A stretch of DNA of 64,000 nt from Flectonema sp. DT1601 (taxonomy: Eukaryota; Euglenozoa; Diplonemea; Diplonemida; Diplonemidae): positions 186,001-250,000 of the forward strand of contig OZ025799.1 in NCBI GenBank assembly GCA_964019425.1, written 5' to 3'. A program made the position numbers and the translations under genes. Below are positions 31,045 to 57,238 of the stretch, in pieces. Positions within the stretch are counted from its first letter, which is position 1, and each line of letters opens with the position of its first letter. The notes under the pieces were generated by a model. It saw nothing but the letters and a program-made list of their open reading frames with translations. It ran no database searches and had not been told where the DNA came from.

Positions 31045-32322
31045 CTATATGACTAAGCATTTCCCAGCTAAATTTGCAACCTTCCGTTGCCCTTCAGTGA
31101 TGGTAAATTTATTTGTAGTTTTTTCAGAAGGGTTTAAATTATTGTTTGAAGCAATCCATTTTGAGCACAAATCAACCAGAGGAATGTTACTCATACTATG
31201 TTGAGATAATAAATACATTGGACCAGGCTCTTGTATAGATTCTGTACTGGCTATACAGGGTTGTGAACCAGTATTAAGAAACCCATAACCAAAAAAGACA
31301 CAGTAGTGGGAGTACACTCCGTTGTACAATGCTGGGAGAGAGGTACCAGGATTACGATCGTAAGGAAAAACAATAAGCTTTCCATCATCAATAATACTTT
31401 TAATTACAATTTCAATATCATCAGTTGTGGTTTCCAACACATAGGCATCTTTGAACAACAAGACATCAACAGCCAACCTTTCAAGGTTATTTATATTAAA
31501 AATTTCACCATCAGCGGAATAGCTGCGTTCAACTGCTGTTTCCAGGAGTGTCTTTGCATCTGATGGTAGTTGTTGGTTGTAGTACTCTTTTACCATTCGT
31601 AGTGCGGCAAGGCCACATGATGGTCCGACTTGTCTTTGCCATGGAACATTGACGCAATGATAAGTAAAACATAATTCTGAAACAGTGAGTGACTCACACG
31701 ATGATGATATGAGTGAATGCAACTCTTCATTATCGCGAGATTGGGAAGGAAGCTCTTGAACCAATCGCTTTCTCATCCAGGTAACGTTTTCTCCTTCTCT
31801 CGGATTATCAATATTATCCATCGCAGAAGAATCCATTTTATTCTGTCTCTGAGACAGCATCGATTCCAGAGCTAATATAGCCTGTTGATTAAACTTTCTT
31901 AATACTGGTTTATCAAGATTAATTCTTTGACAGAACATGTATCCACACTTCTCATAGAAACCTTTAGCAGTGGAAGTCCAGAGGTATATGTAGGTGTAAT
32001 TCAATTCTTTAGCAACTTCCTCTAATCCAGACATGAGTTCTTTGCCGTATCCTTTTCCTCTGTGTTTTGTTGAAATTACAACAGATGTGATGGCGCATGC
32101 CATCCCTTCTCCAGTTTCCGCAGCATTTTGAATACGAGCACACCCAACACATTCTGATGAGTTATCGTTTGATTCTAAGAGAAGTCCGAAGGTTCTTCCT
32201 TCTTTTTTATTTTGAATCCTCTCCAGTCTCATCTCCAATGAAATACCTGGCCATTCCTCACATAGACATTCACACGCCTCTCTACAGAGTGAATCGTTGC
32301 TTCCTAACTCAACAACTTTCAT
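31045..32322 (-). CDS. NAA80-ACTMAP fusion: actin N-acetyltransferase plus actin maturation protease
   Basis: A 425-aa protein with two domains that act in turn on the actin N-terminus. Residues 1-140 are a GNAT acetyltransferase most like NAA80: REACECLCEEWPGISLEMRL, the acetyl-CoA loop KHRGKGYGKELMSGLEEVAK at 86-105 and KGFYEKCGYMF match NAA80 segment by segment. Residues about 225-425 match ACTMAP (C19orf54): RQVGPSCGLAAL with Gln231 and Cys236, ETAVERSYSADGEIF at 261, FPYD at 319, a His at 339 in YSHYCVFFGY, then PGPMYLLSQ and a C-terminal GKCLVI. In animals ACTMAP removes the acetylated first residue of actin and NAA80 re-acetylates the new end. The acceptor CTTCTACATCCCAG is 10 nt upstream. 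The domain calls rest on remembered family sequences; catalytic residues are all present. Confidence 0.88.
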   Translation of the reverse strand: MKVVELGSNDSLCREACECLCEEWPGISLEMRLERIQNKKEGRTFGLLLESNDNSSECVGCARIQNAAETGEGMACAITSVVISTKHRGKGYGKELMSGLEEVAKELNYTYIYLWTSTAKGFYEKCGYMFCQRINLDKPVLRKFNQQAILALESMLSQRQNKMDSSAMDNIDNPREGENVTWMRKRLVQELPSQSRDNEELHSLISSSCESLTVSELCFTYHCVNVPWQRQVGPSCGLAALRMVKEYYNQQLPSDAKTLLETAVERSYSADGEIFNINNLERLAVDVLLFKDAYVLETTTDDIEIVIKSIIDDGKLIVFPYDRNPGTSLPALYNGVYSHYCVFFGYGFLNTGSQPCIASTESIQEPGPMYLLSQHSMSNIPLVDLCSKWIASNNNLNPSEKTTNKFTITEGQRKVANLAGKCLVI

Positions 32323-32606: not shown

Positions 32607-33464
32607 TCAGCTTCCTTTGGATCTGATTTTAATAATCAGCGTGTGTCTTACTCCTTCTGCTAAGGGAGTGACAGAGTGCTCAACGTTTCCGAGATGCATT
32701 AATGCATGACCGGGTTTGTTGTGTGGAAAATCTGTAGTTGTTTCTTCATGAAAGACGCGAAATTTAGCCCCACTAAAACCATTAGATAAACAAATATTTA
32801 ATGTGGCGAGGTCTCCATCAAGGTGTCGAGGCCAGTCATTATTTGTCTTGGTGTCGTATCGCATTACCTTTGGGAGGATTTCATAGCTCTCATTCTTTAA
32901 TGATGGGAACAGTTCTTTCATAAAAGGATCAAATTGCTTCATGAACCCTTCAAATAAACCACTAAGTCCTAAATAAGACATTCTTAAAGCTATTCCACTG
33001 TCATTCGTGACATTTAAAAAGTTCTCAATCTCTCTAGTTAGATTTTTACAGAAATGAGGAGTGAACAACGGAAATGCAAACACGTTGCTTGAATGAGACT
33101 GAACAAAGTTCGGTTTTAACGGTTGCAGCAGCATTTCATTAGAGAAGCGACGCATTTCAGGGAACATAGGCTTATAGTCAATTTCCTGTATTAAAGACTT
33201 CTTTTCTTCACCAGCACCATGCATTCTTAAAACCAAGTGAAATGTTGATTCACGTTGGACGCAGTAGTCAGCCAGCGTCCTGCCATCTTCAAGTTGTTTG
33301 CCAGCAAAGATTAGTCGTTGTTCATTAAGTTCTATGTCTAAGAGTTCTCGTAATTTTCTTTTCACATCACCAACGGTATCCCTTGATGAATAGTCTAGAG
33401 TGTATGTCTCTCCTTGAAGTGTTTTTACAAACAGTTTCGGATCACCTTGAAAATAACCACTCAT
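32607..33464 (-). CDS. Ubiquitin-like domain fused to a 2-oxoglutarate/Fe(II) oxygenase
   Basis: I start at the ATG at 33464, because the acceptor CTTTTCATTTCAACAG ends 19 nt before it and a longer frame would begin upstream of that site. The 285-aa product has ubiquitin-like residues 9-85: [26 protein letters not shown] and STFHLVLR are nearly identical to ubiquitin, but the end reads MHGAGEEKK instead of RLRGG, so it should not be cleaved or conjugated. Residues about 125-283 form a prolyl/lysyl-hydroxylase-type double-stranded helix with iron ligands His214, Asp216 and His263 (HLD; GNVEHSV) and the 2OG-binding Arg273. Enzyme activity is expected. The ubiquitin part may target it to proteasomes or ubiquitin receptors; this is inference. 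Confidence 0.9.
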
Positions 33465-33784
33465 TGTAGAAGAGAAAACAAACCTGTTGAAATGAAAAGT
33501 ATAAATTATCACAGCAGGTTATTGCCTTTTAGATCGATTCCCTCTCTGACATTTTTTTTTTCCTTCTTGCTGTTAAGCAACCAACTTACACAAATTGTAA
33601 TATGTTGGAATAGTTTCTACTCCTCAAGTGTTCTCAGTTGTTGTCTGAGTTCGAAGTTTGAAAAATGTAATAATAATAAAACAATCGAGAGGATAAATGG
33701 GAGAACTTGTTTCAAAAGAAATGCGCCAAAACAGTACAATCGAAATCCACGTTATTAAATTACGTATAACCCGGATATAGTTTT

Positions 33785-42811: not shown

Positions 42812-45800
42812 TTAGATAACAAAACAAACAACAAGAATAATCATCACAGATACTAACTGAGAACTAATTCCAATTCCAGATGAAGGAGTGACCGATGCAA
42901 TTACCGGTTGCAGTGTGTTCGGAACAGATGAAGGAACAGCAGTCGGTATACCAGTCGGTAAACCCGTACTGACACCACTCGGAGTTATTGTTGAGAGAGG
43001 TGCTGGTACCGTGGTAGGAGGAACAATAATAGTAGCTGTTTGGTTGTTTATATTATTGTCACTACATTACATTAATTACTTTTATTCCATAATCACATAC
43101 TCGTAAAGCCGGTAGCTACAGCAGTCGAAAACAGTTCATTACTTCTAAGTTGTGAATTAGGATCATTCAATTCTTGTACAACAACATCAGTGATAGCGCT
43201 GATTAGAATTGCTTCACTAAATGGAGTTGGTGTGAACTCGATTTCAAATTCAGCTTTTGCTTGAATCTCATTCCCACTCGCCAACACTTGCAGCCATCTG
43301 TAACTCTGAGTTGAATTATTTCCGCTGCTATTGCTTACGAAATTATAACAATACCCACCATCTGGTGACGTCCCTGACCTGTCTACGGATGTGATACCAA
43401 GCTTTGCACGTCTTGCAGGCAATCCACAGCAGTACAACAACGTCGTATTTTTAACAAACTGCAACGTCTTACGGAGAGTTATCGCTATTTGGTCTTCGAA
43501 TATGGAAGCGTTAACAGATTGTAAGAAAGATCTAAACTGCGCTTGTGCTTCAGTAGATGTAGTACCATTAAATGACCTTAACGTCATCGCTGCGTGGATA
43601 ACCGGTGGTGGTTGTACTTGAGGTTCACTTGAATTAGTTTTTCCAACAGAGAATTGAAGGGAATTAACAACTTTTCCATCACATCCAATACCACTACAAA
43701 TAAATTCTAATACCATTGCTTCGCATTGTCTTGTAAATCGAAGACTACCTATGCTAACAACACCCATCGTAGATACAAATACACGACGTTGAAGGACATC
43801 AATGTCACCTGCCTGTTTTTTATATTTTAATTTCAATGATTTCGTCAAATAAAAAACATCAGAACGTACCACATTTAGTTATTATCATTAATTTTAGAAC
43901 AGAAAAGTGAGAATAAGAAAAGCAGAGTTTAGTAAAACAAAAAAGTATTCATTTCTGCAGTTTCCTAACATCAAAGGGTAATAGCATTGAGTTATTTAGT
44001 TACATACCTGTGTCCATTGTCCTAGATAAGAACCTTCACCAGAATGGCATATCGCGTTTACTTCTATTGTACTGAAATTATCAGCTTTTACAATCTGGTA
44101 TTTGTTTTTTTTTTTTTTTTTGATGATAAAGAGTAAAATCATAATAATAATAATAATAATAATAATAACATCTGCCAGTGTTAAAGTAAATACCTTATCA
44201 AATTCATCGACAATATGAACAACGATTTCGTAAGGCTCTCTCATTATACTGCAGGTTCTGTTTCTGTGTTTGGGGTTCTGTTTATATTTTCAAATAAAAT
44301 AGTTTTATTAAAAATAGATTTATTCAAAAACATACAACATATAGTTTAGATGACTCTCACAAGGGCTAAAGACAAGTATTCTATTTATTGATTGCATGAG
44401 AAAACTTCCTTCAACAGTTCCCTCTTCAGTTCCATAAACAAAAGGACATCCGAACGAGAAGTAAGCTTCTGGAGGACCTCTGTAAGTTGCATTAGAGGTG
44501 ATGTACTCACCGCTAACTAATCGAAATTGCTGAGAAGCTGATGAACTGATCCCATCGAAAAACCAACTAGATCCACCACAGTGACTAAATGAATCTGATT
44601 CGTATTGACAACCCCCACTAGGTATACCACTATAACAACTCTGTCGAACAGACACAGAATCCAAATCGATAGACAGACACGGTATAGCTGCTGGAACCAT
44701 CGTTACCAAAGCATTGCTACCCTCATCACCAGATGATATAATTTGATTCAACGAGTCAACCACAACAATCTTATAAATTACTGGTAATCCGTACAACCAG
44801 TACATTCCAGTGTGAATTGGAATCCATTTGTTTTTTATTTTGATACTAACTTTCAAAGCAGCAGGTGACTTAATAAAATACAAAGGAGTTGGCACAACTA
44901 CTGGAGGCATTTGCAAGACTGTGTTATTTACAAACGGAGTTTCAGCAAAGATTGTGATCATCCACGGAATGTGAGGACATGTTGGACACGTCCAGTCAGA
45001 AGTCGTATTTATATTTCTAATTGCGATCATTGCAATGCCTGCCGTTGATGTGACTTTTGAAATATTCCAAACTTGAACATGACATGAGACACAAGGCTTT
45101 CTCTTAGCCACTGCATTGAAGACTGTTCCCATGTCTCCATCAGCCTTTGTTGAGGTGTTTACATATGTTTGTAATTTTATATAAATAGTTTCACCAACTA
45201 AAAATGATGGTTCTCCCTCAGGTGTCAGCGCGCGTCTTTCAGATATAAAATCATCACCGCACTCGTTGTTTGAATGAACAGCACACACCGATTTTGAAAT
45301 GTTGAAATGCATTATATCAACAGATATGATATACAGTTCTGATAGTGCAGAAGTGTATAAATTAACCATTGATGTTGGTAGCAGTGATGCTGAAGGGATA
45401 TGACATTCACCGAATAAAGGAAAATACCCAGATACCTTAACAAGATCAGTATTTATAACACGAACACCGCAGCTGTTTGGATTTGAATAAGTTGTTGAAC
45501 AAATAAAACAGTTTGGTGGTATCATTGCAGAGCCATCAATTATTATTTGACTTGTCGTCCAATTTAAATTATCACCTCGACCGTTAATTGGTTCACTTTT
45601 AGTATTGACAACAACTAGTTCAATATCAGTCGTTTGATTTGCTATCTTGTGTGTTGGTTGACTGGACCAACTCCATGAAGACTTCTCAAGTATCGAATAC
45701 GACACATGAACTGTCACATTAGACTCATTCCTCTCAGGCGCTATCATATCTGATGGAGATCTAAAAACTAAATCACATTGACATTTCAAATTATGAGGTG

Positions 45801-48800
45801 CAGCTTTAAATATTATGTTGAATTTCGCCTTACCTTTGCGAACAAAAGCTGATCCTGGCACAGACAAATCACATCCTTCATAATTACACTTCAGAGTTGA
45901 AAATGTAACTGGGGATTTCATTGGTTCAGTTGATATAAACCAGTTTTGTTGATTTCTTGATCCGACCAACAGGATTTCTAATGTAAATATTTCACCAACG
46001 AATCCCTCAATAGGATGATCACTAACTGTAATGTGAGAAGCAGGAACCGTTAAATCAATTAGAATAGGATTTCCTTTCCTTCCAAGTAGTGTAACAGGAA
46101 TATTTGGATAGTTTTGTAATCTTACAATGATTGGATAATTACTTCTGATGTCAGAAACAGATATTTTCATTTGACCAGGAATAGTATTGTCATAGGTTGG
46201 ATACGGGATTCCATTTAGAATAAAAGTACCTGCAGTAATAACTGGATAAGAACCTCCCTCAACAAGAACACCTGCAGTAGATTTATTGCTAATTGGATTC
46301 ACAATACTAAGAGGAGGTAATCTTACACTCTGAAGAGTAGCAACAACCGACTTTGATCGATGTATCTGAGATAACGGTTGCATGGATCTGTAACTCGGAC
46401 CTCCAATGCTGTATGCACGATCACCCAGATCATCAGCTGCGTATACATTAAAATAGAAAACACCAAGTTGAGTTGTGCGACTAATATTAGCCATTTGAAG
46501 AGTCTTTCCAACAGGTATCATAATTATCTGTTGGATTGTTGTTAAGACAGTGAGATCTATCTGTTTTCCTGCATACGAAATTGAACATTTAAAACAAGCT
46601 CTGTTGAATGCGATTACTGCTGTTGCGATTCCAAATAATGAAGAAATCTGTTTATGTTGGGATAACACATAAAGTGATCCACCACCTCCGTTACCAAAAC
46701 TCTGAGGTAGAAGTATTGGTAGTTGTGATTGACCACCAGATTCGTATGATGGAAAATTATTTTTATCAGACCTAATAACAGTCAGTGAAAAGGGAACTCT
46801 TCGATAAACAGCTGTCGGAGGAACACCTCCGAGAATCCATCCAATTGGACATGAAACGATTCTAAATTCCATCACATTCGTATCACTAACTTTGTTTCGA
46901 AGTATCGTATACGTTATTCGATCGTTGTGTTCATATCGCAATTGAACAACACACTGAGCACATGGACGAGTAAAATAAAACTTAACTTCCGGCCACTGAA
47001 AAACGTCATTCCGTGAGAACATTAAATCTGATTGAGATACTTCACAGCTGAGCGATGATCCGAATTTTAAAAACCCTCCATTACCATATTTTAGAAGAAG
47101 TCGTTTATCAGATGAAACCGACTTTGCAATTATCGAAAGACGTCCCGGCAATGAGGAAGTCTGAATTTCCATAACTGAACTACGAAGCTGCTGTTTAACA
47201 AATAGTTTTAATGTGAGTGTGAAGGTTGATCCAATCCGGATGATGTTTTTATTTTTTTCGATCATAGCAGGATCGTGAAGGGATTCAACTTCTGAAGACA
47301 CCAACGGAATTGTTTGATTTGATATGAGAACTTTCAAATCCTCAACGTCATCAACGAGTTTGACACGGAAATTACGAGATTGTACTTTTCTTGTCTCCGG
47401 AATTAAATAATCAAATCTGTGAGACCTTATATCGACATCAGTGCAGTCTTGGGCGCCATTTTCAATATCTGCCGTCATGTAGCAAAGAGTTACTACAAGA
47501 AAACAACTTTCGCATGGTTCTGAAAAAACTGCGAAAAACACCACCACACCATCAATCATTTTAACTAAATTCTGTTCTGGTCCGATTGCTGGTGACAGCG
47601 ATGAGAGTTTGCCTTCTATCGTTTCTGCGGTGAAAGTTTTCAAATTGCTAAAAGAAGTCTTTTTCAAAGTATACACTTTAAGTTGTCCACCATTATTACA
47701 TCCAGTGTTGTACTTTGAATTAACCCTTACATACATACCACCAAGACCCCAAAAACGAGGAAAATTAGGGTTTTGGATATCAAAAGAAGCATTAGTAATG
47801 TGAACTTGTACTGGAAAAGGAACTCCAGATATGATTGAGTCAAAGCCTGAATACTGGAACGGGACATCTTCAACCGTATCAAAATTTCTTTTATTCGACA
47901 GGTATCCGTTTTCAGGCCACGGAACAAATCTGAGACCTTTGTTAGGATTTTTAAATTCTAAATTATTAAAACACTCAACATCGTGAATGACGTAGTCTTC
48001 TATTGTTAATTTAAGACTCGAATCAGTCAAATACTGTTCATCATACCCAACATCATTCCAATAAAAAGTACCCAATCCAATCGTAACCTCACTAAGTAAT
48101 CCATCACTAATAATTGGTACTAATTTCATTGATATTGTTGTTGATAATAGTTGATTTGAGTATAGAGGTCCCATTCTTATTAGTGGGAGCCATCTGTTGT
48201 TGAGAGGTTGATCGAGTCCCATTATTATGCTTGAACCAGAAGTAGAAGTGAGAGATATGTTGTATTTCAAATGAGCATCAGCATAATAATAAACATTTAA
48301 ATAATTATAAACAAGATATCCAGTGACAGTGAATATTCCATTTGTTTCTGTTGAGCCACAACCTGTACCAATTCGTACAACTCGTCTTGTAAGTGATTTT
48401 GACTGATCATGAAATTCAATTTTTGGATTCACATCAGGAACGATCGTCAGCGTTACTATCGCACAACGAAGACTGTCGGTGTATATTCCAATTGGCCTTG
48501 TTTTATGTTTTGCACAGATATAAACTATTCCGTTATTCAACGGACCCTGCGTGCTTGGATCGATATCCGCATACGTTAATTTTAATAAACCAGATCCAGC
48601 AACACCGGGACTGACGTCATCAAGGGATGGTAAGTCAGCTTTCAACTTTACCAATCCATAAGAATAAGAACTAGATGATTGATACTTCGAATTGACTTCA
48701 AATACCGGAGCTTCCCAATTCCCAGTTTCAGTCATCTTTTCTAAACAACATTGAGCAGTAGCAGAGCCTGATATGGTTATATTCCTATAAGTAAAATCTA

Positions 48801-51800
48801 TTTTATTATCCACCAATACAGATAGCTTCAGTTCGATTCCCTCTGCCATACCAGAAATGGTTGTTGTAATGTAAGGATTTTGGTGGTTGCTGTCATTAAA
48901 ATCTATGCCGCTTGTAATAGGAGTAACCTGAATGTATCCTTCACTGTTGAATGTACCTCCACCTTCGTAAATACTGAGCTCCACCATAGAATCACAAGAA
49001 TACTTACCATGCTGTGTCATTGCGTGTACGGTTATAGTTTTCAGTTCAAAAATACCCGCTTTTGACATTGGTAAAATTTTTTCATACAAAGCAGAAAATC
49101 TCAAATTAAAACTGTGATTTCCTCCATCTAAACGAGACGTAATAATTGGTGACGACTCAACGACATCCGATTCAACTAAATTAATACCAACTGTCGGTTG
49201 ATTTTGAGTTGTTGGCGTAGTTTTAACTTCTTCAACCTCAATAAATATCCACCACTTAGGCCATGATAACTGACTTGTTATAATTGAAGTATTGCTTTGT
49301 CTTAGTACCGCTTGAACAGTTATTGAAAATGAAGAAGATTTTAATTTATTTGATGCTCTCGACGGATCGAATACGATAGTTTGATGAGATGCTTTGCAAT
49401 CAATTCCAAAGTTTACTAATTTCTTATCGACGAATGACAATTTTAATGAGCCTCTCAAACTATCACCAGTCTGACCTGTAGGACCAATTCCCGCAGTACT
49501 ATGAAAAGTAAACAAACAGTTTGAACATGGTTTATTCACATTTAATATCATACTTGCTGATGTGAATCCATTCTGTGTCGTCACCGGATAGGATTTAACT
49601 TTGCAGTAATCTGACTGAGAATTACTAAAAGCACATCCAACATAACCCTCTGACTGGACTAAGTGAACACCACGAGAATTAGATAACCCACTACTTGTTG
49701 ACAGTGATTCATCTGAATAAATCATAACAAATATATCACCATTATGAAACCTATCCAAAAGTACTTCACCAGTATCCGTTACTGTTGCTGGGTATACCGA
49801 AATCGCAATACCTGTACTGATGTCAGCAGTTTTTTCGATAGTATAGTCTCCTGAATGCTTTCCTACAACAAGAGTGTTTGCAGGGACTCGAACTGAAGTT
49901 TGAATAGTCAGCTCAACGACACCACAATCAAATATCAGTAAACAACCATTTACATAATCACGATTAGCTGATAATCTGAAATCAATTCCCCAAAGATCTC
50001 CTCCTAAAGGAATGGCACGAGCGTTTGATAATTTTAAACTATCATCTTCATTGAGAGGAGGATTTGCATAATTTTCTGGTGACGGTTTTCCATTTGATAA
50101 CCAAATCACAGAAAGGACATCTCCGCGTGGCTCACCATCATTAAGAGTTGCAGTGAATGCCAAAGGAAATCCGTTTGAATTTTGTATCAGTTTTCCTGTT
50201 GATGTCGAAGCCTTGAATATAATTCTGTAGGGGATTAGTACTTCTAAATATGTGTTCTGATCATTTTTAACCCAAGGTTTCACTGGTTGACTAACTCTAT
50301 CTGACAACACATCCAGAGGCTCAATGTGAACAACTTCTAATTCTCTTGGCTGAAGTCTTTTTATTATCAAAATATATTCTGAAGTCGTAGTTATGAATGT
50401 TCCACTATTTTGAACATAAAATTTAAAAGTTGCATTGTTGACTGCAGACGCAAGAATAGGTTTAAATGTGACTGTGTACTTACCACCAATGGGCCAGGTT
50501 TTATTTTGATGCTGATTCAGTTGAATGACTGCGTCTGGGACGCTATTGGAATCGTTTGCTGATCTTATGACTGACAGTGAACCCGCCGGACTAAATTCGG
50601 GTACCCCTCGATAATGAGGAATTATCTGAAAATTACATATCGATCCGTGATAGCAAACCAACTCTTCTGAATCATCATCCATAATAACAGTTATCGACGT
50701 CGGATACTTCGATTTCATATTCACCCAAAACGATTGAGAAGAAAGAGTTAATCGTCTACTTGGTATCGTCACTATTATTTTAATACCACAACCGAATAAA
50801 TTATCAGGACACGATGACTGATATTGTAAAAGTATTGTACGATATTCTAATGAAGATCCCCAGTCTTCTTTCAGACCATTTGTTGGTCTTTTATATTCAC
50901 CTTCTTCATCATAACAAGAAGACTCTAAGCTTTTTACAATAAAATCACCAGGCTCAGTAGCAGTAGAATACTCGTTGCAAGAAAGTCCAGCCCATGATGC
51001 GGTTTTCTGACAGCGGACAACTTCAACTGACATGTCTTCTGGAGGAAGAGAGACACCTGATTCCGACACCAAACTAACAGAGAACATAATTACAGACCCT
51101 GTCTCTACTACAGTTGATCTTGACATAATACCGTCTTCTGTAATATCAGTGTCAGGTATATCGCTGTATTGTAATTCCGTTGTACTGTTATATAGCGAAA
51201 ATCGATTTGCGTTCTTACCAGTCGTTGAGTTGCTATTTTCCTCAAAAGTCCCGCTGATTTTCAACTGTGTTGGAGTTGCAGCTACATAGTCTCTCCAGTA
51301 GCGAGTGTCTCCACCTTCTTTTGTATTTCCTTTGTTGTACAGTTGATGTACTACTCCCCGTTTGGAATACGTGCCAGCGGCAGCCTTAAAAACACAGATT
51401 TTGTAACGACCAGATGCAGAAGTGTATACTGGAGGAAGAATAAAAGGTTTCGCACTGTGAAGCACAGCTGTTGAAGTCGCAGATGGAGTAAGAACATGCC
51501 AGTCGTCGATTCCGGTGAAGTCCGTTGGAGAAGACGATGGAATGGGACAGTTTTGAGTTTCATTTACGACAGTCAATAAATCAAACTGATGACCATCAAT
51601 TAAACAACTAACTCCAGTTGATAAATCAGTCTTACACCAATTAGTAACATGTGAATCAATTATTGTTACGTTTGTTAGTAACTTCGATACATCAAAACTT
51701 AAGAATGAAGGATACGTAAACAAAAGGAAATTATTCGTTAATTTGTTGGGAATTTGCACCCAAGCTGAAGAGCTGTTTTGGCGAAAGCAAACTAAGTATG

Positions 51801-54800
51801 CACCAGGTTCTGGCATATGGATAACAGGAGATAGCGCAACTAATGAAGGACACGTTCCAAAATATGGTTCACATTTAGTATCAGTAGACACCACGCCATG
51901 AGAACGACAGTTGCTGTGGACAGATGTCCAATCGTCAACTGAGTCTGTCCACTTTGAGTCACCTGGAAATGAATTCTCAGGAGGTATTTTATACTGAACA
52001 ATTTTAAACTGATTACTGTCACTAACAAATGAATTATCACCGTAGCCTTCCATTATAAACCCATCTGCTTCAGTTCCCCCAACATACGTTGTTAGCCCAC
52101 CAGCAACTGCTGTTTCAGCCTGAGAAACATTCAGATCAGATTCATTTTTTAAATTTGTTATTTGCTGAAGTATTGAAGACAGCGACCAGTTCTTCACTAA
52201 CGCTTTCTGAGTTCGGAATTGTCCTTTTGGAGCGAGGGAGGTATTTGAGTGAGGAATTTCTAACCAAAGAGCGCTATCCTTAAGATACGTACCAGTTCTG
52301 TAAGTGTTTGAATAAAGACAAACTCGATACTCAACAGAAGCATCTTCAGCTACGTGTGGTAGTTGGATTACGACGGATGCTCTTCCAGCATTTGTCGATG
52401 AAATGCTTAACTCATTCTCTAAAGGTTTATCTGATGAGCACAGTGCTGTCGTTCGGACAACCGCAGCGCGATCATCCTCATGAAACCAACCATTAAGATT
52501 GATTAACTGTAATGAAATAGCTGCTCCGTTAGTTGGGATGCTGTCGTTGTGGTTAACTTGCCATACAATTTGATGACTTTTCACACTTAAATTAGACACT
52601 CGAAACCATGACATGTCTTCAATAGATTTAATACAAATTTGATAAACACCAACCACTTGTGGGATTGGTATTCCGAATTCAAAACCAGAAATATTTGACA
52701 TCGCTCCAAATGGTTCATTCAAATCAACAGGTGGCTGTAAACAGTCACCCGTTGTGGTTATCAACTTCGACATTGTTGTGATGAGAGTATCACCATTCGC
52801 TGATATTAAATAACCACCTAAAGTCATACCAGTGAACACTTGATATCCTTTTAGAGTTTTAAAACGATTATCTACTACGACAGTTACTTCATTTTCAGGA
52901 GTAATTAACATCTGTAAAGAAAGTCTAACCCAGTTAGGAGTTCCACTTTGCTTGTAGCAAATCACAGCTGTTCTGTTGTACTCTGGTAGTGGTATTGTAA
53001 TGGAAGATGCAATAGAAGGTAATCCCGAGATGGTTTCACCTTTTTGCGCTTTAGAGATATCATCATAATAAGAAGGAGTGATTTGTATGTATTTATTTAA
53101 TAGTGTCATCTCTGTTGATGTTTTTTCAGAATTACAAGAAGACCCGGAACATAATTGCATAGCTAATTCACTCTGACTGCATGCAATAGCGTGACTCGAG
53201 CTACTGCTGTCATGGTATAAACCACTTTGCTGAAGTGATCCACTGCCATCAACTTGACAATAACTATTCACAAATACCGGCATTGACACAGCAATAGCTG
53301 TGCGATTATTACACGTAGAAGTACTCCAAACTATATTCAATATATCACCTGGGTATTGACAGTAATATGGATTCTGTTCTAGGCACTCTCCTGGAGACGA
53401 AGACATCAACTCAGAGCTACGATCTTTAATTAGTATTAACGCTTCTGCATTAGGACGATATTCCGACATTAAAAGTGACAAAGTATGATCTTCCCATGCT
53501 GATAGATACCAATTACCTGAAATATATTGACCTCGTTGTTTCATTGTAATCGGATCGTGGTTGTGATAAATGATGTTGGTACCAGTTGGTGATGCTTGTA
53601 GAGTTTTATAATTGAAAGCTCCTTGTCTATAACAGACTCTCCAATCTCCCTTTGGAATTGTAATGTAAAACGAAACAGACGTAACTGAGTCATCATTGAG
53701 AAGATTTCCTCGACATGATATTTTTGTATTCGACGAATCCAATCCGAGGTTGGAATCTTGGCAGTCATAAGTTCCTCCATCAAGGTTTATCGCTCCCAAT
53801 TCTCTTATCTCTAAGTTAGAATTACTATAAGAACAAGGTCTATGTATTGGTACTAGTTTAACTAATGAACCAGAATCATAACTACTCAGTGACTTGTTAA
53901 TGTTGTTTCTATTAATTTGATTCCATGGAGCTGACGATAACAACTTCCACTCTGATGATACGTCAGTCGTATTGGATATTTCAACAACGATAGGACCATA
54001 AGTAGCTACTCTACTGTCATTCATATACCACGTAGCTGGAGATGGGTATTTTATACCTATATCTCTTCCCCAATATTTTGGTTGTAGGATAGTAGGAGTT
54101 AACTCGGATCTGAATTGAATGCCCGGAAGATGTTTATAAAACTGACTCATGGATGACTGATTTACGTCACTGATCCAAGAAAGCATTCTAAAACCACTAT
54201 TTGCAGTGCAATTACTATTAACAGGGGGGTTAGCGCAAGCAATCCGATAACAAACGTACCATGATATTGATTCATCAGAGATGTATATATTTGCATTTGT
54301 ACTTTCAATGTTGGTAGCATTATTCATACCAAGAAATGATTTTAAACTGTGAGATCCTATCGCATAGGGTGATTCATCTTCGTTGAATCCACCGACGGTA
54401 TTATTATTTGAGTAGTCGTATTCGGTTGTCCAGCATCCTTCATTAGGACGAGATCCCTTGTATATTGATTGAATACCGATTGTTTTTATTGTTTTTGATT
54501 CGTCAGATTTCGATTTTCTGATTAATCGAAAATAATCACCTCCTTTAGGAGACCAATAATTTGAAGTATCAGTCGATGGATAGGAACTCAGTCTCAATTT
54601 CTTATCAAAAAAAGCTATTTCTCCGTATGAATCAGGTTGTAAGTCAAAAGCCATCCATTCAACATCTTCTGATATTATTTTAAAGGAAAATGATGATGAT
54701 GATGATGATGATGATACGCAATTGGTTCTGTCACTGCATAATGGTATCTTTTTCCACATCGGTATTTGATCAATCGTTGTGTTGCTCAGCCAATGTCGTC

Positions 54801-56028
54801 TCCATTCCGAACGCTGAAGTTTATTAGAGTAGCAGATGTCATATTTCTGTCCTACGGAATTCTGACCTCCAGGTAGTTTCACATAAACATACGCATCGCG
54901 TTCTATGTTGGGGAGATTATCTCCTGCAGGGGAGTAGGTGCCAGAGCTGTACCATGAATCAGTTAAAGGATTTGAATGTTGAGTACCGAATAGTCCAATA
55001 CCACCTGCTGTCCCACCTAAATAGAATCCTTCGTAACCATCTGGTGTCCAAGTACCGTCTTCTAATGTGTTGTTGGATCCTATGTACTGTGATCCAAGAT
55101 TTTGAAATTCATAAGTACAAGAAGTCCCTTCAGGTACAATTTTCAAATTATCACCTTGAGCACAATAATAGTCATCTGACTTACACTCAGAAGGAGGATA
55201 CGTAAAATTATATTTGTCGTTGCTCAGAATTTGAATAATCGCGTATTGTGAAGATGTCGTTTCAGGAAGATAGTACCACGTTGTTGATTGCTGACCTTTG
55301 AATATGTAATTACCTTCAGACGTGAATAGTAATTGCCACTTTCTACGATTAGAAACTGGTTCGTTATATATTTGAGAATCTAATTTTATTTTATAACAAA
55401 CAATGAAATTAACATTATGACTCGGAACTGAGAATGTAAAGTGAGCAGTAGTCGCAAATTCATTTTTTTCAAAAGTCTCTGAAGTAGCCAATCCAAAGTG
55501 ATTAAAATGCATTAAACGACTGGCATCAGGATATCGACTACAGTCTTGATCTAAATTTGATGAATACGAATAAAGAGCTAACTCTATAACTCCAATGTCG
55601 GAGGTATTCCATAACCTAACTGGAAGTGAATTAATAACTGCCGTGATGGATATTCTTATTTCCTGACCTTCAGTGAATTCAGTAGTAGAGAACTCTGATG
55701 TGATGTTAGTGAAACTGATTTTTGATTCAGATGTTGAAACTGATAGAGATTTCGTTGATGAAATCGACTTCGACTTACTCAAACTAATCGACTGCGACAC
55801 AGTTGGAATACTAAGCGAACTTGTGATCGAATGCAATGATAAGCTTTCTGACGATGTCCTACTAACAGAACGACTATCTGATTTCGAATTTGAATCTGTC
55901 GGTAGCGACCAACTCTTCGTCGAAGTCAAGCTCATCGTCAGACTATCTGAAAAGGTCTCTGTTCTCGTTACCCCATCAGCATTCCTTAATAATAATAACC
56001 ATATTAAAAAAACATGAACCGACTTCAT
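42812..56028 (-). CDS. Giant cell-surface protein, five exons, about 4,261 aa
   Basis: The acceptor TTGTTAATTTTATAG lies 18 nt before the ATG at 56028. Exons: 44336-56028, 44194-44263, 44008-44094, 43101-43812, 42812-43035. Introns of 72, 99, 195 and 65 nt start GTATGT, GTATTT, GTATGT, GTATGT and end in A-rich CAG; the joined frame is open and a multiple of three. If the first intron is ignored, the frame ends at 44320 without any anchor. Residues 1-19 are a signal peptide; 20-105 are Ser/Thr-rich. The ectodomain then repeats modules ending in xVCYR-type strands (about residues 100-1550) and, later, modules with PCxxC (KPCSNC, EPCESC, RPCAQC, RACFKC, KPCVSC). The last exon encodes a Pro/Thr/Ser stalk and a hydrophobic tail, SVMIILVVCFVI, fitting a GPI signal or membrane anchor. 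Many N-glycosylation sequons. Similar giant Ser/Thr-started surface proteins are known in free-living kinetoplastids. Function unknown. Confidence 0.8.
54692..54715 (-). repeat. In-frame trinucleotide repeat (Ser run)
   Basis: GAT/ATC-phase repeats inside the giant gene encode eight or nine serines in a row, after NRTNCV. Confidence 0.7.
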
Positions 56029-56347: not shown

Positions 56348-57238
56348 TTATTGGTATTCAAGAGTCATTGTAGCAGAGAACATAGAGCCACCACTAGCAG
56401 GTGATATTGTAATAGTAGTTGAAGCAACATTTATTAATGTACCTAATACCCTTCGGAAATCAGTTCTGTCATTTATTGGTTGTGAATTCAGACCAACAAT
56501 AACATCACCAGGACTAACCCCAGCTAGAGATGCCGGTCCGTTCTTTCTAATCGCCAATACCTTCACTCCATTGACTCCGCGAGAAGAAAAGTCAACTAGT
56601 TCGAGTCCGACTGAGGGAAGTTTTATTTGATGAGATGCTTGAACGGGTGCAGGGGAAACAGAATTAATAGTGCCAACAGTTTGTGCTGAAGATGGTAATA
56701 CAGGAGTAAGACAATCATCATATTCTGAAACAGAACTGACTGCTGCTCTAATAAAGTTAAGTACAGTCACTCGCTGAAGAGTAGTAGCGAAGGATGGATC
56801 TACCACGAGTGTTGTGAAAAATCCTGGTGAGAGTCGAAGCATTTCGCTTATTGAGATATAGCTCATCTGGTCAGTACCACGAGTGTCGTAGCAGGCTATA
56901 GACTCCACACCTGATTGTTCAACACAATGAGATGATATAAATATTATTGTTGCTTGTGAACCAGATTTTCCAATTCCTTTTATTTCTCTCTGAATACCAA
57001 TTTTTGTAGCCGCTTCGTTATACAGTTTTGAGACTGTAAATCCCAACTGTGAGAGAACTTCTGCGATCTTATTGCAATCCTGAACTCCTTCATCACGTCT
57101 TCCCATTTGCATGTATGTGTCGCACCCAATTACGATACCTCGACGAGTAGACGGTTGTGAGTCTTCTCTGACTCCGCATGTCATTCTCATTACCACATCA
57201 TCAATAATATGAACATCACTCCCCGGCAGGTGAGGCAT
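56348..57238 (-). CDS. Caspase-like (C14) domain fused to PDZ, predicted inactive
   Basis: A 296-aa protein. Residues about 33-165 follow a caspase/metacaspase p20 fold: RRGIVIGCDTYMQMG, a D-x-C-N helix (DCNKIAEVLSQLGFTVSKL), ATIIFISSHC with the His at 104, then TTLVVDPSF, where active enzymes have DACHSG. The nucleophile Cys is replaced (Ser149), so proteolysis is unlikely. Residues about 208-290 form a PDZ domain: GLELVDFSS, VLAIRKNGPASLAGVSPGDV and GLNSQPINDRTDFRRVL, typical of HtrA/DegP-type PDZ. The acceptor CATCTCCTAACAG ends 11 nt before the ATG. A scaffold or pseudo-protease role is likely. Confidence 0.75.
   Translation of the reverse strand: MPHLPGSDVHIIDDVVMRMTCGVREDSQPSTRRGIVIGCDTYMQMGRRDEGVQDCNKIAEVLSQLGFTVSKLYNEAATKIGIQREIKGIGKSGSQATIIFISSHCVEQSGVESIACYDTRGTDQMSYISISEMLRLSPGFFTTLVVDPSFATTLQRVTVLNFIRAAVSSVSEYDDCLTPVLPSSAQTVGTINSVSPAPVQASHQIKLPSVGLELVDFSSRGVNGVKVLAIRKNGPASLAGVSPGDVIVGLNSQPINDRTDFRRVLGTLINVASTTITISPASGGSMFSATMTLEYQ

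Follow-up and report, generated by a model that had tools for sequence, protein, structure and literature searches.

An NAA80-like acetyltransferase and an ACTMAP-like protease joined in one predicted protein of Flectonema sp. DT1601

In the diplonemid Flectonema sp. DT1601, a single open reading frame (ORF) encodes an N-terminal GNAT acetyltransferase joined to a C-terminal ACTMAP-like protease. The ORF lies at positions 31045-32322, on the minus strand, of the window analyzed here, a stretch of 64,000 nucleotides from contig OZ025799.1. It runs for 425 codons without interruption and gives a protein of 425 amino acids, and the plus-strand frame over the same interval is full of stops. By simple arithmetic (61/64 per codon), the chance that 425 random codons stay open is about 1e-9. 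When the protein was searched against Pfam, residues 13-128 matched PF00583 (GNAT) with 54.1 bits against a cut-off of 20.7, and residues 229-346 (31285-31638) matched PF21646 (ACTMAP-like_C) with 74.5 bits against a cut-off of 27 and an E-value of 1.3e-20. These results confirmed that the acetyltransferase and the PF21646 protease are encoded in one frame. A sequence-only reading of the window had proposed this 425-residue chain with both domains. Its coordinates were correct, the strand, which it had not named, is the minus strand, and the residues it had singled out (RGKGYGK at residues 88-94, Gln231, Cys236, and His339) all stand at those positions in the translation. In the organism's own genome (89.5 Mb, 92 contigs), the whole protein had a single match, and PF21646 was found at one locus, the fusion gene itself, even with E-values up to 10. 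Judged from its sequence and predicted structure, the protein is likely to be one bifunctional enzyme that finishes the actin N-terminus, in which the acetylated methionine is removed and Asp2 is then acetylated by the same chain.

The acetyltransferase domain covers about residues 1-193 (31744-32322, minus strand, as for all features of the gene given below) and has a GNAT fold. Fly and human NAA80 were its best PDB matches by single sequence, by profile, and by predicted structure. NAA80 also filled ranks 1-5 when the predicted fold was compared with the PDB, a proximity that holds within the PDB chains rather than on a full GNAT tree. The N-terminal half had been read as NAA80, and this assignment held, NAA80 being the nearest PDB family by all three comparisons and the substrate-site tryptophan being kept. 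In the alignments, Trp24 (32251-32253) fell on the substrate-binding W36 of fly and W105 of human NAA80, and Arg32 (32227-32229) fell on R43 and R112, respectively. The substrate-site roles of these NAA80 residues are described in PMC10318143. The end of the domain had been placed near residue 140, which was too early. The structural match to NAA80 runs on to residue 187, and the strand WMRKRL (residues 182-187, 31762-31779) therefore belongs to the acetyltransferase as its last strand. Within it, Trp182 and Arg186 were shared by all 44 sequences of the alignment. The motif RGKGYGK (32041-32061), which we take to be the acetyl-CoA-binding loop of the GNAT fold, was well conserved among the aligned homologues, with Gly93 kept in 31 of 31 and Gly91 in 29 of 31. 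Before the last strand, the predicted structure and the alignment showed a low-confidence insert of about residues 138-178 (31789-31911), with a predicted helix at 146-162 and a small number of invariant residues (Leu141, Leu152, and Glu153). In human NAA80, the same place is taken by the proline-rich beta6-beta7 loop, which is reported to bind profilin (PMC7864067). Pro-Pro occurs nowhere in the 425-residue protein, which is thus without a profilin-binding polyproline loop.

The protease domain, about residues 196-425 (31048-31737), was predicted with confidence to have a papain-like fold. Four of its residues were identical in all 44 aligned sequences, namely Gln231 (31630-31632), the presumed oxyanion-hole residue by analogy with papain-like families, Cys236 (31615-31617), the presumed nucleophile, His339 (31306-31308), the putative general base, and Asp322 (31357-31359). 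By inference, Cys236 is the counterpart of C132 in human ACTMAP, whose role is described in PMC13367750. PF21646 was matched by 31 of 31 members of homologue set A1 at an E-value of 0.01 or better. The proposal that this half belongs to the ACTMAP family was borne out by a PF21646 score far over the cut-off and by the confidently predicted papain-like fold. Peptidase_C39_2 (PF13529) was considered as the identity of the domain and rejected, with 17.3 bits against a cut-off of 24. PDB sequence searches gave no match to the protease half among the best 60 of 81 and the best 60 of 65 rows, and no ACTMAP entry was among the PDB structure matches listed, which excludes nothing.

The joined protein recurs in other sequences. 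A homologue search returned 39 proteins including the window's own, of which 31 had both domains and eight had PF21646 without a GNAT match. A further search added at least five more two-domain proteins (P0040-P0044), and a third gave P0045, a fragment with a GNAT match only, which stops inside the start of the protease. Since 30 other proteins from genome, metagenome, and transcriptome sources match both domains, an assembly accident appears unlikely. Both domains were also found in two transcript ORFs labeled complete, P0002 (67% identical, from EukProt) and P0008 (from MMETSP). Three fused homologues carried an organism name, and all are from diatoms: P0007 of Cylindrotheca closterium, P0009 of C. 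fusiformis, and P0005 of a Bacillariaceae metagenome-assembled genome. P0007, which UniRef lists under the name "Actin maturation protease", has the same domain order, last GNAT strand, and protease motifs as the Flectonema protein, but it is longer (551 amino acids) with more insertions, has WPK instead of WPG...R, and shares 30% identity across 89% of the query. P0019 and P0033 each have a PDZ match, located in the protease half after the Cys motif and ahead of the next helix. The eight proteins without a GNAT match were considered as stand-alone proteases, and this was judged the less likely reading. Five of them start at a point within the acetyltransferase and the other three a little ahead of its last strand, and because all eight keep that strand (W-x-R/K-K-R), they look like shortened gene models.

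The histories of the two halves were then compared in 36 two-domain proteins, which were split at the domain boundary with none dropped, several of them having shortened N-termini. The pairwise distances of the two halves gave a Spearman correlation of 0.86, the pairs not being independent. Both half-trees nested P0001 and P0002 together, then P0003, then P0004, with local supports of 0.75-1.00. These correlated distances and matching trees would be expected from one old fusion whose halves stayed together. It is conceivable, but we hold it doubtful, that the machinery for the actin N-terminus began as the fused enzyme, which formed a single time early in eukaryote evolution and was retained by many unicellular lineages, and that a later split gave rise to the two animal genes.

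New actin with the N-terminus Met-Asp-Asp-Asp is first acetylated on its methionine by the general NatB enzyme. In the mechanism proposed here, this NatB-acetylated actin would be taken up by the C-terminal papain-like protease, which would cleave off the acetyl-Met with Cys236, His339, and an oxyanion hole including Gln231, and would thereby expose Asp2. The N-terminal NAA80-type acetyltransferase would then move an acetyl group from acetyl-CoA onto Asp2. We infer that both halves are active with actin as the substrate, and that, through the fusion, the two reactions are coupled within a single encounter with actin. The protease and acetyltransferase steps probably work together outside animals too, because the joined protein is found again in diatoms and in other sequences.

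The classic substrate, MDDD actin, is encoded in the same genome as the fusion. An actin-family search of this genome gave 41 matches, some of them in genes interrupted as if by introns, and the 5' ends were inspected at 18 of the 41 loci. Seven of these were conventional actins by sequence, and the other eleven were taken as actin-related proteins or pieces short of the start. Six of the seven conventional actins, clustered on contigs C2 and C72, start with MDDDQQAIVCDNG (Met-Asp-Asp-Asp), and the seventh, L002 (G000:C30:523491-524669), starts with MSEEDQQAIVCDNG. With MSEEDQQAIV at its start against MDDDQQAIV in the others, L002 may differ in its N-terminal processing. Muscle actins, with their Cys-acidic start, are reported to lose an acetylated second residue (PMC8358657), and the MSEE start could be processed in a similar way. 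The conventional actin genes on C2 and C72 (L007-L012) stand in same-strand tandem arrays, and four profilin genes of nearly equal score form another same-strand tandem array on contig C12 (L033-L036). The actin-family and profilin genes mark the genome as eukaryotic.

Several points limit the reading as one bifunctional enzyme of actin processing. A fusion is indirect evidence that two proteins work together. The sequence-only reading had called it direct Rosetta-stone evidence, of which the support for a functional link stands and the word "direct" does not. The putative orthology of the protease to ACTMAP rests on the Pfam model PF21646, and no named animal ACTMAP was among the homology matches, which came from word-sharing searches, two of them over the best 8000 candidates. 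Nor is the protein unique to this genome, such fused proteins being already in public protein collections. In the acetyltransferase half, the other NAA80 arginine (R38 in fly, R107 in human) faces Gly26 or a gap in the alignment, 22 of the 26 homologue rows that have a residue in the Arg32 column show Tyr, and the polyproline loop by which human NAA80 recruits profilin is absent. These features would suit an enzyme that carries out the same two N-terminal reactions but whose main substrate is not actin, or which acts on a wider set of acetylated N-termini. We consider such an enzyme unlikely, as the substrate-site tryptophan is retained, P0001-P0004 carry Arg in the Arg32 column, and of the remaining 22 rows, 19 have Arg or Lys two residues past the tryptophan (counted from the printed rows). 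Moreover, the polyproline loop does not define NAA80, as insects are reported to lack polyprolines too (PMC7864067), and the MDDD start was found in six of the seven conventional actins.

It could also be that one half is inactive and serves as a docking module, so that only the protease or only the acetyltransferase works. The activity of both halves is a prediction from sequence, and a few members deviate in the acetyl-CoA loop (Gly91 being kept in 29 of 31). However, the residues presumed to serve catalysis and the fold, in either half, change little or not at all among diverged members, and the two halves co-diverge, and we give a single working half an even smaller chance than another substrate. 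GNAT-DUF3335 proteins are bacterial. They likewise combine an acetyltransferase with a papain-like domain, of another papain-like family (PF11814), and DUF3335 members are described as often fused to GNAT domains (PMC10318531), but a comparable GNAT-peptidase fusion unrelated to NAA80 and ACTMAP is very improbable here, as PF11814 was not listed at E-values up to 1 (above about 0.1, few matches pass the HMMER filters) against 1.3e-20 for PF21646, and scans of viral contigs (15 pattern matches) and of bacterial and archaeal contigs (23 pattern matches) with two short motifs only gave no confirmed relatives, none of the matches passing tblastn.

The bifunctional actin-processing enzyme favored here was compared with the known animal proteins. 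NAA80 (NatH; PDB 5wjd and 6nas) has the GNAT fold, is the nearest PDB relative, and has the substrate-site tryptophan in common with the fusion protein, but it is a separate gene in animals. Human NAA80 carries the profilin-binding polyproline loop, whereas the fusion protein has another insert, no Pro-Pro, and one contact arginine missing. ACTMAP (C19orf54) of animals has the PF21646 domain, the papain-like fold, and the invariant Cys, His, and Gln, as in the fusion. To our knowledge, human ACTMAP is not fused. It was reportedly defined by Haahr et al. in 2022 (Science). Human ACTMAP is a protein of about 45 kDa (PMC13367750), whereas here its counterpart is joined behind an acetyltransferase. 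In the parts of the ACTMAP and NAA80 literature available to our search, there was no description of a fused NAA80-ACTMAP protein, and an earlier mention is possible, for example in Haahr et al. (2022).

The window around the gene showed further features. All 22 ORFs of at least 180 amino acids in positions 1-64000 are on the minus strand, and four other stretches of 10 kb (L038-L041) were also one-sided, with plus-to-minus ratios of 0:3, 0:3, 0:1, and 5:1. This one-sidedness suggests that the genes are arranged in directional clusters, as they are in organisms whose transcription is polycistronic. Immediately upstream of the fusion gene, the minus-strand ORF at 32607-33512 has a ubiquitin-like domain joined to an OGFOD2-like match that is borderline, with 30.8 bits against a cut-off of 31. 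On the same strand, positions 44320-56028 hold an intronless ORF of 3902 amino acids with no Pfam match at an E-value of 1e-4, and the ORF at 56348-57238 has a caspase-like domain (Peptidase_C14) followed by a PDZ domain.

Outside animals, the N-terminal processing of actin was reportedly studied in Dictyostelium by Redman and Rubenstein in 1981. The two late steps, in which ACTMAP cleaves off the acetylated residue and NAA80 acetylates the new end, have been called animal-specific (PMC10318143), and a review describes actin N-terminal processing as widespread among eukaryotes and not universal (PMC11853071). With the conserved fusion in Flectonema and diatoms, both domains are present in a single non-animal protein, and the animal-only view becomes directly testable. 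The functional link between protease and acetyltransferase that the gene fusion supports can be tested in species with the fusion by mass spectrometry and by knocking out one gene. If active, the protein would also serve as a one-chain tool for producing processed actin. And if the fused form is the older one, the "animal-specific" pathway would be ancient and would have been lost from most of the well-studied non-animal models.
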